Assembly (NCBI GenBank): GCA_029238785.1
Contig: JAQWFN010000104.1
Span: forward strand, 1 to 38,035
Reading direction: 5' to 3'
DNA: 38,035 nt
DNA from: Flavobacteriales bacterium
GTDB taxonomy: Bacteria; Bacteroidota; Bacteroidia; Flavobacteriales_D; Sanyastnellaceae
Each line of letters begins with the position of its first letter. The stretch's first letter is position 1. This document shows positions 3,027-16,728 of this stretch, piece after piece. The notes under the pieces are model-generated. The model did no database searches. It saw nothing but the letters and a program-made list of their open reading frames with translations, and was not told the DNA's origin. The position numbers and the translations under genes are program-made.

Positions 3027-3043
3027 TCAATCAAAGTATTTAT

Positions 3044-3075
3044 AAAAAAGGCGCTATCTCTAGCGCCTTTTTTTT
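3044..3075 (+). terminator. Rho-independent terminator after mscL
   Basis: The perfect stem AAAAAGGCGCTA / TAGCGCCTTTTT has a TCTC loop and a T-tract of about nine. It starts 18 nt after the mscL stop. Confidence 0.92.
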
Positions 3076-3192
3076 TGTTTCTGCGCGTCTATTTTAATGG
3101 TGACACAAAAAAACTCCACACCTTTAGTGATGTTCTTTGTTTTCCTTCTTCAATCTCAATGTTTTCGGGATAATTTTCTCAATGGCTAAACT

Positions 3193-3200
3193 TACCTTTG
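3193..3200 (+). promoter_or_regulatory. Bacteroidota -7 promoter element for the RND exporter
   Basis: TACCTTTG matches the TAnnTTTG consensus exactly and ends 19 nt before the GTG start at 3220. No clear TTG/TTTG -33 box is seen at the expected distance. The predicted 5' UTR is only about 12-15 nt. Confidence 0.55.
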
Positions 3201-3219
3201 CGAAGCTTGTTAATAGCAC

Positions 3220-14238: not shown

Positions 14239-14260
14239 ACTATATATTTAAGTCTCATTG
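14239..14260 (-). repeat. Left terminal inverted repeat (L1)
   Basis: On the minus strand it contains TGAGACTTAAATATATAG, matching the three copies at 15331, 15412 and 15475 in inverted orientation. The TAA stop of the transposase is inside it. Confidence 0.8.
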
Positions 14261-15120
14261 AAGCGTTTATAGGCCAACCAGGGGTGTTTTATCATGATTT
14301 GAATCAATAAAGGGAAGCCTTTCTGATGCTCCTGCATTTTAAAATACCGGTAGCTAAACTCACATAGATAAAAAAACATATGCCTTCGAGAAACATGAAG
14401 GTGTGTTTGCTTCACCCAGCTCAACAAAGCCTGAATAAATCCTTGAACCGATTCATCCCTTTGGTTCACAAAAGGTAAGATTCCTTTTGTCCATGCATCT
14501 CCCCTAGCTTTTCGATGAACGCTGATCTGCTTTGACTTGGGTTTGATGGCACTATATTTTTTCAGCGAAAAAGTTTGAAAACGGACCATTTCAATAAATT
14601 CTTCTCCAGTAAAAGGATTAACACGATCATAAACATCAAGACAAACACCAAGTCCATAAGCTGCTTCATCAAGAAGGATTTCTCTAAGATTCACTTTTTC
14701 TCTCAACCTTAAAACGCCATCACCTTTCCAATAAAAAGCTCTAGTATGTAAGCGAGTCATAGCTTGTTGAACCTTCCTTTTAAAAAACCAAGCTGTTGGT
14801 TGACAAATACCATGCTCTCGAGCCATTGCACAACTAGATTTCCCTTCTGGATCGCAGCACAATTGAAAAGCAATTTTGAAAGCTACATTTATAGAAAACT
14901 TCAGCTTATGGAAGAGTGTATTGGCAGTGGGTGATTCATCATACTGACATTTATTACATCTTCGATGATGCCACTTCTTTCCTTTACAGTATTGATGATG
15001 TCCACATTTTCTACAGGTATAACCTTGTGACCATTTACTTGCGATAAGGTAATTATAGCAAGCTTCCTCACTTTTAAAAGATGCTTTAAATGCAGTGATG
15101 TCTAAGTTCAAGCTACTCAT
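14248..15120 (-). CDS. IS1595-like transposase, divergent catalytic region
   Basis: This is a 290-residue protein. The N-terminal zinc ribbon is clear: C36-x2-C39-x15-C55-x2-C58 (CRKCGHHQYC ... RRCNKC). It is followed by the family-typical DESPTANTLFHKLKF and a helix-turn-helix-like stretch ending PTAWFFKRKVQQAM. The ISXO2-like DDE domain should follow. A first acidic block is present (ILLDEAAYG, D151), and the C-terminus keeps the LHVSRRHMFFYLCEFSYRY block that normally reads HxxVSrkHLxxYLxEFxFR. I cannot find the usual TDGWxGY second-Asp block; the region reads SKQISVHRKARGDAW instead. The enzyme may be inactive, domesticated or from a diverged subgroup. The reading frame is intact, which argues against simple decay. 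Confidence 0.8.
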   Translation of the reverse strand: MSSLNLDITAFKASFKSEEACYNYLIASKWSQGYTCRKCGHHQYCKGKKWHHRRCNKCQYDESPTANTLFHKLKFSINVAFKIAFQLCCDPEGKSSCAMAREHGICQPTAWFFKRKVQQAMTRLHTRAFYWKGDGVLRLREKVNLREILLDEAAYGLGVCLDVYDRVNPFTGEEFIEMVRFQTFSLKKYSAIKPKSKQISVHRKARGDAWTKGILPFVNQRDESVQGFIQALLSWVKQTHLHVSRRHMFFYLCEFSYRYFKMQEHQKGFPLLIQIMIKHPWLAYKRFNET

Positions 15121-15330
15121 GGAAAAAACAACAAATCTAACCCATCATCCTGAAAATTAAATGATTACATACAAATTAAAGGTAGTCATTCACAAATTCA
15201 TGCTATGAAGCCTCGATAAAAAACCGTTTAAAGTAAAAGTTTCACCCTTTGCTTATTCCAAGCGCCAAAGAAGCCGCTTCTTATGAATTTGAAGCTTTAT
15301 AAATTCTGTTGAAACTGGATAAAGAATGTG

Positions 15331-15352
15331 ATTTGAGACTTAACTATATAAG
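15331..15352 (+). repeat. Right terminal repeat copy R1
   Basis: It contains TGAGACTTAACTATATAAG and is in inverted orientation to L1. It is the copy nearest the transposase start. Confidence 0.8.
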
Positions 15353-15411
15353 AGCTGATGAAATGGTTTAGAACAAACCATATTTTAACCTTGGATTGTA
15401 AAAAAAGTCCC

Positions 15412-15433
15412 ATTTGAGACTTAAGTATATAGC
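15412..15433 (+). repeat. Right terminal repeat copy R2
   Basis: It contains TGAGACTTAAGTATATAGC and lies 81 bp after R1, measured between TGAGAC cores. Confidence 0.8.
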
Positions 15434-15474
15434 TCAATTTGAAATCTTCTCAACGATACCAAGGCACACCCGCA

Positions 15475-15496
15475 ATTTGAGACCTAACTATATAGC
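15475..15496 (+). repeat. Right terminal repeat copy R3
   Basis: It contains TGAGACCTAACTATATAGC and lies 63 bp after R2. It is the outermost copy, 9 bp from the end of the IMPase-like gene. Confidence 0.8.
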
Positions 15497-16374: not shown

Positions 16375-16728
16375 CTATGTTAAGACCTCATTGAGATCAG
16401 ATTGTAATGAAGCTATCATGGATTCTGGAATGTCTGAAAAATCCAAAAAAATCAGTCCATCTAGAGCGCCAAATGGGTGGTTGGATACGATAATGAACGG
16501 TCCGCTTTTTGGCAGCTTCTCTAAATCCTTCTCTAAACAATCGATGTTAATCTGAAGACTTTCGAAGATCTTTGGGATAAACGCGTCATGGCCAAGCTTA
16601 GCCAATTTATCGTACAATTCATTGAGGTCTTTAATTCCCGCAAACTTAATGAGCAAATCTACAAGGGGGTTAGCTTGATTTAAACGTGTAACTTTTGCCA
16701 ATTGCACTTTGGTAACTACTTCCTTCAT
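16375..16728 (-). pseudogene. Truncated lysophospholipid acyltransferase (PlsC-like), N-terminal remnant
   Basis: The reading frame codes for only 117 residues. Residues 1 to about 95 resemble the N-terminus of the Bacteroidota lysophospholipid acyltransferase family: a helical leader with LNELYDKLAKLGHDAFIPKI, then GPFIIVSNHPFGALDGLIFL, containing the catalytic HxxxxD motif as HPFGALD. Normal members continue for another 150 or more residues, with the FxEGTR-like block. Here the protein ends shortly after the active-site motif with an unrelated tail (DFSDIPESMIASLQSDLNEV). This looks like a remnant left by a deletion rather than a complete enzyme. Its location beside an IS-like element supports local rearrangement. 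Confidence 0.65.

Follow-up and report, generated by a model that had tools for sequence, protein, structure and literature searches.

The window, by which we mean the whole analysed stretch of 38,035 nt from a Flavobacteriales bacterium of the family Sanyastnellaceae, carries at 14248..15120 on the minus strand (stop codon included) a gene for a 290-aa protein of IS1595 type. What it retains of the IS1595 type is the zinc ribbon, the helix-turn-helix region and the C-terminus; the D-D-E/N core is absent. Its zinc ribbon (residues 16–60, CxxC...CxxC; 14941..15075, minus strand) contains four invariant cysteines and matches the Pfam model PF12760 with 25.5 bits against a cut-off of 25.4. The helix-turn-helix-like region (residues 77–120; 14761..14892, minus strand) bears the TAWFFKRK motif and is modelled by AF2 as three helices of good confidence, with pLDDT of 84–94 per block. 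The former catalytic region (residues 123–222; 14455..14754, minus strand) is degenerate and has neither the TDxW nor the LKNW motif; of the Pfam IS1595 catalytic profile only a 36-residue stretch at the profile end matches the protein, below the cut-off. The AF2 model as a whole is weak (mean pLDDT 70, pTM 0.64), its confidence being good for about residues 11–120 and poor between 123 and 222, and a Foldseek search of it against the PDB returned no match at E ≤ 0.001. No HUH (Y1) transposase family was found among the Pfam matches of the protein at E ≤ 10.

Short repeats border this gene. The core TGAGACYTAANTATATA has four exact matches in the window, with 0.02 expected at two mismatches or fewer (the largest count in 100 shuffles was 1). 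One match, inverted, lies at the end of the gene (14241..14257, minus strand) and contains its stop codon; the other three lie upstream of the gene on the plus strand, at 15334..15350 (R1), 15415..15431 (R2) and 15478..15494 (R3), R2 being 81 bp from R1 and R3 63 bp from R2. The initial annotation had described just this arrangement, with one inverted left copy, three direct right copies, the same spacings and the transposase stop inside the left copy, and our results bear it out. Across the genome the core has six further exact sites (10 in all, over three contigs), and it proved to be one of five related repeat classes, here called A (that of the window) to E.

The genome of the window (G000; 132 contigs, 99.57% complete, 0.18% contaminated) has five single-copy DDE-less IS1595-type genes with a mutual identity of 38–45%. 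Its congener G001, the sole other genome of the genus in our searches and fragmented like G000, has four of the genes in full length and, for class A, a piece of 65 aa from the C-terminus. All five gene loci match between the two genomes, with neighbour identities of 54–97%, the names of the neighbours being read from their translations. The class A gene adjoins a TonB-receptor-like gene (91–92% identical between G000 and G001), the class B gene adjoins genes of 56–57% identity with one of 85% farther away, and the class D gene adjoins a LolC/E-like gene (77%). Class C is flanked by tex-like (74%) and peptidylprolyl-isomerase-like (85%) genes and class E by carB-like (97%) and hydrolase-like (54%) genes. 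The presence of the genes at matching loci in two species argues for vertical inheritance and not for mobility. At the class A locus we also observed that the G001 remnant is fused in frame to a GNAT-domain ORF (L032:868-1692); in the window, an acyltransferase-like ORF near the element (16375-16728) has only 117 aa, and the ORF at the matching locus of G001 has a GNAT domain.

The reading frames are open in all nine full-length genes. The four orthologous protein pairs are 40–52% identical, hardly above the other pairs (33–45%), and by region the orthologue identity is 58–72% over residues 1–122, 20–32% over residues 123–222 and 38–47% at the C-terminus. In a tree of 26 rows the nine members formed one clade (100/100), in which the orthologue pairs of classes B, C and E were supported and that of class D was not. 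A profile search of 114 genomes of the family gave nine genomes with a match at E ≤ 1e-20, and the DDE-less clade was seen in G000 and G001. The longer readable matches of the other genomes have the first catalytic motif, several short or broken matches being unclassable, and intact IS1595 genes are present in other genera of the family.

Loss of the catalytic core is common to the clade. The zinc ribbon PF12760 was found at E ≤ 0.01 in 9/9 full-length members, with its four cysteines invariant, and the window protein alone was seen to pass the cut-off of that model, narrowly. The IS1595 catalytic domain reached E ≤ 0.01 in two of the nine, and where inspected the match was to the end of the profile. 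Alignment with three intact relatives, which possess V(E/H)VDE or IEVDE, TD(G/Q)W and LKNWLRG, showed that the second and third catalytic motifs are missing in all nine; LDE is retained in two (the window protein and the class C protein of G000) and may or may not represent the first acidic residue. Apart from A205 and W210, nothing in the replaced region, residues 123–222, suggests a new conserved triad. Against the NCBIfam IS1595 model (cut-off 75 bits), all four clade members tested scored 31.5–48.7, and two intact relatives scored 139 and 158. The clade proteins are apparently catalytically dead transposases. No IS1595 catalytic domain exceeded the cut-off in either G000 or G001, which leaves mobilisation in trans by a present-day relative without a candidate.

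The repeats beside these genes are about 20 bp long and have the common core (G/T)G(A/C)GAC-N-TAA, the next six bases setting the class: nTATAT in A, GCCGGT in B (GCCGTT at the G001 gene), GTCAAT in C, ATGGAT in D and GCCGAT in E. Beside the genes of G000 we found one terminal and three upstream repeats for class A, one and four for class B, one and one for class C, none and four for class D, and one and one for class E, the last with four more repeats about 1.8–2.2 kb farther up. Upstream repeats in G001 number three for B, three for C, two for D and one for E (E by eye), and the orthologous genes of classes B, C, D and E have corresponding repeat tails in the two genomes. When gene ends were read by hand, the stop codon was the TAA of the core in six of nine full-length genes. 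In the class B gene of G001 the repeat lies inside the end of the gene and the stop farther on, and the class D genes of G000 and G001 have no recognisable terminal repeat. The variable base of GAC-N-TAA in classes B, C and D is mostly C/T in G000 and mostly G in G001; this difference hits several classes at once, as if the classes had shifted jointly.

All five intact IS1595 relatives carry exactly one inverted repeat per side (at six mismatches or fewer), with the stop codon inside. Because intact relatives have one such repeat per side with the stop in it, we conclude that the repeats described here descend from IS1595 ends. The outer part of the repeat reads GGATTA, GGTTTA or GGGTTA in the intact relatives; its GG is absent from the class consensus, which may mean that the tip used in strand transfer has been lost. 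Single-strand folding of the consensus repeats was no better than that of shuffles for all five classes (z −0.7 to 0.7), but folding is seen for the inverted pairs of class A (z −3.6), the inverted-pair unit beating all but 1 of 200 shuffles. The label of an IS-like element given to the locus in the initial annotation is therefore right as to descent, the gene being derived from IS1595 and the repeats from its terminal repeats, but the locus is not an IS moved by its own protein, since the second and third motifs are lost in all nine full-length members and the loci match in two species.

Related repeats also form arrays elsewhere in the genome. For these we searched with two patterns, KGMGACYTAANNNNNT and KGMGACGTAANNNNNT, and used the reversed patterns as a control. 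G000 gave 84 exact sites (66+18) against 24 (13+11) with the control, and G001 gave 69 (19+50) against 20 (15+5). Sorted by tail, the G000 sites fall into B (29), D (28), A (11), C (6) and E (3), with seven unclassified, one of the 'E' sites (C26) pairing with class A sites and being A by other scoring; those of G001 fall into C (25), B (21), D (16), E (2) and A (0), with five unclassified. As several arrays lie at contig ends, these counts are probably low. Most sites are clustered, with at least two within 300 bp for 74 of 84 in G000 and 56 of 69 in G001. Among 20 array loci one overlaps a 123-aa frame, two further ones are entered by up to 53 bp by the stop-to-stop frames of their neighbours, and the rest are clear of frames of at least 80 aa. 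The initial annotation had considered a genome-wide scatter of the repeat with no link to the transposase; the scatter is indeed seen, but the classes pair with particular genes.

Most arrays consist of direct repeats. Class A also has three tandem head-to-head pairs (C26), and mixed-class arrays of G000 were found in C17 (A, B and C) and in C29, where C alternates with B. The exact class D string is present in 2 of 114 family genomes, G000 (26) and G001 (11), against 0 for the control. Class D repeat-plus-spacer units are common to unlinked arrays, so that units have moved somehow. C27 and C69 of G000 overlap by 481 bp and represent two versions of one locus; of their 23 mismatches one lies outside the array, which indicates that arrays turn over faster than their flanks. 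A CRISPR-like memory was considered and rejected: many of the spacers in one and the same array are nearly identical, and neither of two proteins matched the PADLOC anti-phage defence models at E ≤ 1.

Two of three tests favour a period near 11.1–11.25 bp for the spacings within the arrays. By array medians (n=39) none of 2000 null runs reached the observed value, by per-class spacings (n=26) 6 of 2000 did, and by globally distinct spacings (n=14) there was no significant period, with 630 of 2000 null runs reaching it. The helical repeat of DNA in vivo is given as 11 bp per turn in a passage of PMC8501960, and a period near 11 bp would suit an arrangement with several proteins on the same side of the helix. 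Such phasing is only suggestive, because the two positive tests are not independent of shared ancestry.

Pieces of the genes neighbouring ten dispersed G000 arrays, together with xseA beside an eleventh, served to locate the matching places in G001, where about 1.5 kb was read on each side (background: 3 matches in 99 kb of shuffled DNA). No neighbour gene of the C17 array was found in G001, which leaves ten testable arrays. Four of them are kept with the same class, side and orientation: C54, C73 and C131 of class D and C29 of classes C/B. Five (C15, C47, C90, C95 and the C26 array beside xseA) have no counterpart within about 1.5 kb on each side, and at the second C26 place G001 has three D/E-like repeats in place of class A. 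With five of ten absent from the congener and a sixth place holding another class, conservation of the arrays is not strict. C41/C43 (class D) and C12+C102/C76+C45 (class B) are two more conserved places, which stand outside this count because they were noticed through the presence of arrays in both genomes. In L245, after xseA in G001, the place of the class A inverted-pair units of G000 is taken by another short repeat, which is rich in G+C.

Class A has 11 sites in G000 and none among the 69 of G001, whose A gene is a remnant. This joint absence is one case, and the class of the remnant may simply have differed, as the adjoining repeat has a D-like tail. The matching site of the congener holds the 65-aa remnant and one terminal repeat and is free of R1–R3; the initial annotation had named R2 and R3 at orthologous empty sites as a finding that would speak against its reading. 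In the window the gap after an mscL-like gene (3027..3219, no strand assigned) holds no array, and the matching gap of the congener holds a D-like one; the intergenic DNA in this empty-site comparison is too diverged for any target duplication to be visible. Nor was there a young insertion that could be set against its empty site, the flanks being too diverged to show a target-site duplication.

We consider it probable, with moderate confidence, that these genes are a domesticated, catalytically dead transposase family whose members bind their own repeat arrays, each protein with its own class. The ancestor would have been an IS1595-family transposase whose DNA-binding parts were retained and whose D-D-E/N core was lost, leaving five old single-copy descendants, and each class of ~20-bp repeats would derive from the ancestral terminal inverted repeat and be paired with one gene. 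Each protein would bind its own repeat class, with several molecules per array and perhaps cooperatively. Binding upstream of its own gene would serve self-control, and binding at dispersed arrays would serve local regulation or chromosome architecture. Host replication and recombination would lengthen, shorten and homogenise the arrays, and new ones would be seeded rarely at new places. The three apparent right ends of the window would then most likely be a gene-linked array of class A. Among the three options first offered for the extra copies, that of multiple transposase-binding sites fits best, as putative sites. We rejected an account by nested partial insertions, or by the solo ends of small derivatives, as the whole story: the repeats are specific to their class, occur in dispersed arrays and go with genes whose loci match.

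The genes could instead be relics, that is, five decaying IS1595 copies accompanied by MITE-like fragments that a now-lost transposase once moved in trans, with no present function. We think this unlikely. The repeats are plainly IS ends, the class A pairs are MITE-like in look, the A gene is reduced to a remnant in the congener and intact IS1595 genes occur in other genera of the family; however, all nine full-length frames are open despite a divergence of orthologues to 40–52%, the DNA-binding part is the best kept, matching array places and classes persist across species, and neither genome has an intact IS1595 domain over the cut-off.

Quite improbable, in our estimate, is an active REPtron-like system in which a new catalytic activity lets the DDE-less proteins copy and spread the repeats in RAYT/TnpAREP style. 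The known catalytic residues are gone, the region that replaced them is the least conserved (20–32%) and has no new triad bar A205 and W210, and host recombination can account for local growth; these points weigh against the sharing of class D units by unlinked arrays, the likeness of the tandem class A head-to-head pairs to REPIN clusters, the folding of the inverted-pair unit (all but 1/200 shuffles surpassed) and the difference in array presence between the two species, all of which such a system would explain. A very remote alternative is that the arrays are STAR-like intergenic repeats in their own right, which resemble the repeats beside the genes by chance. Their geometry and turnover do resemble those of STAR elements as parts of PMC3532100 describe them, but each of the five classes pairs with one gene and has the same tail at the orthologue in the congener, the repeats match transposase terminal repeats including the stop codon, and the class D string is confined to the genomes with the DDE-less clade (2/114).

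The domesticated family that we favour can be compared with known systems. According to passages of PMC8049555 and PMC8266576, in REP/RAYT a gene that is present once and inherited vertically goes with cognate repeats that are dispersed. Like REP/REPIN with RAYT (TnpAREP), the system described here has a transposase-derived gene, single-copy and vertically inherited in the two genomes of the genus, bordered by repeats that are dispersed intergenically; several gene-repeat pairs exist, and inverted pairs occur (class A here). RAYT is an HUH protein, whereas the present one is IS1595-derived without the catalytic core; REP repeats are palindromic, whereas the single repeats here are not and form mostly direct arrays; and five diverged paralogues reside here in one genome. 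As no HUH family was matched and the single repeats are not palindromic, the system does not belong to REP/RAYT. With the IS1595 family it shares the zinc ribbon, helix-turn-helix region, C-terminus and border repeats with the stop inside, but it differs in the absence of catalytic motifs, in having several repeats on one side (1+3 in the window, 1+1 in intact relatives), in its matching loci in two species and in the lack of the outer GG. Judged by sequence, it is neither a functional IS1595 element nor a REP/RAYT member, and we read its organisation as REP/RAYT-like, with an unrelated protein and repeats that are not palindromic as its basis. The STAR elements of staphylococci are direct repeats interspersed between genes, at loci that grow and shrink (in the part of PMC3532100 that treats them). 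The likeness is one of geometry: both kinds are interspersed, direct and of varying copy number. Here, in contrast, every class has its own gene and originates from IS ends.

DDE-less full-length IS1595-like proteins are also found elsewhere: L054, L080 (Pollutibacter soli), L101 (Ferruginibacter), L022 and L027 (G025). These too have lost the catalytic motifs, and most of their genes have a border inverted repeat. The Pollutibacter and Ferruginibacter rows form a clade separate from that of the window (100/99), so the catalytic core was lost more than once. In the one Pollutibacter soli genome searched no arrays were seen (5 sites, control 1). We also noticed ORFs of ~630–660 aa in Echinicola, Belliella, Lunatibacter and Cytophagaceae with an IS1595-like zinc-ribbon/helix-turn-helix stretch near the C-terminus (L105:1492-3408 and L110:1432-3408; similar ones in L102, L106, L111, L112, L114, L115, L116 and L118). 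Two that were tested also match 7TMR-DISM sensor domains, and it seems that a membrane sensor captured a transposase DNA-binding domain.

In the literature searched, with subscription journals and preprints mostly outside, no title or abstract described this pairing of dead transposases and repeats. It is to us an evenly balanced question whether it constitutes a second, independently evolved domesticated-transposase/repeat system of bacteria, one of five fast-diverging DNA-binding proteins without catalysis that have their own helically phased intergenic arrays, lost with the gene. RAYTs confound two ideas, namely that hosts keep such genes for spreading repeats or for binding them, and the two could be told apart in a parallel system whose founding transposase is unrelated and, as it seems, catalytically dead. 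On sequence grounds, repeat spreading by a DDE-less protein is unlikely; genes and arrays nonetheless persist and diverge together. The five gene-class pairs in two genomes also offer a natural experiment on the joint divergence of a DNA-binding protein and its site.
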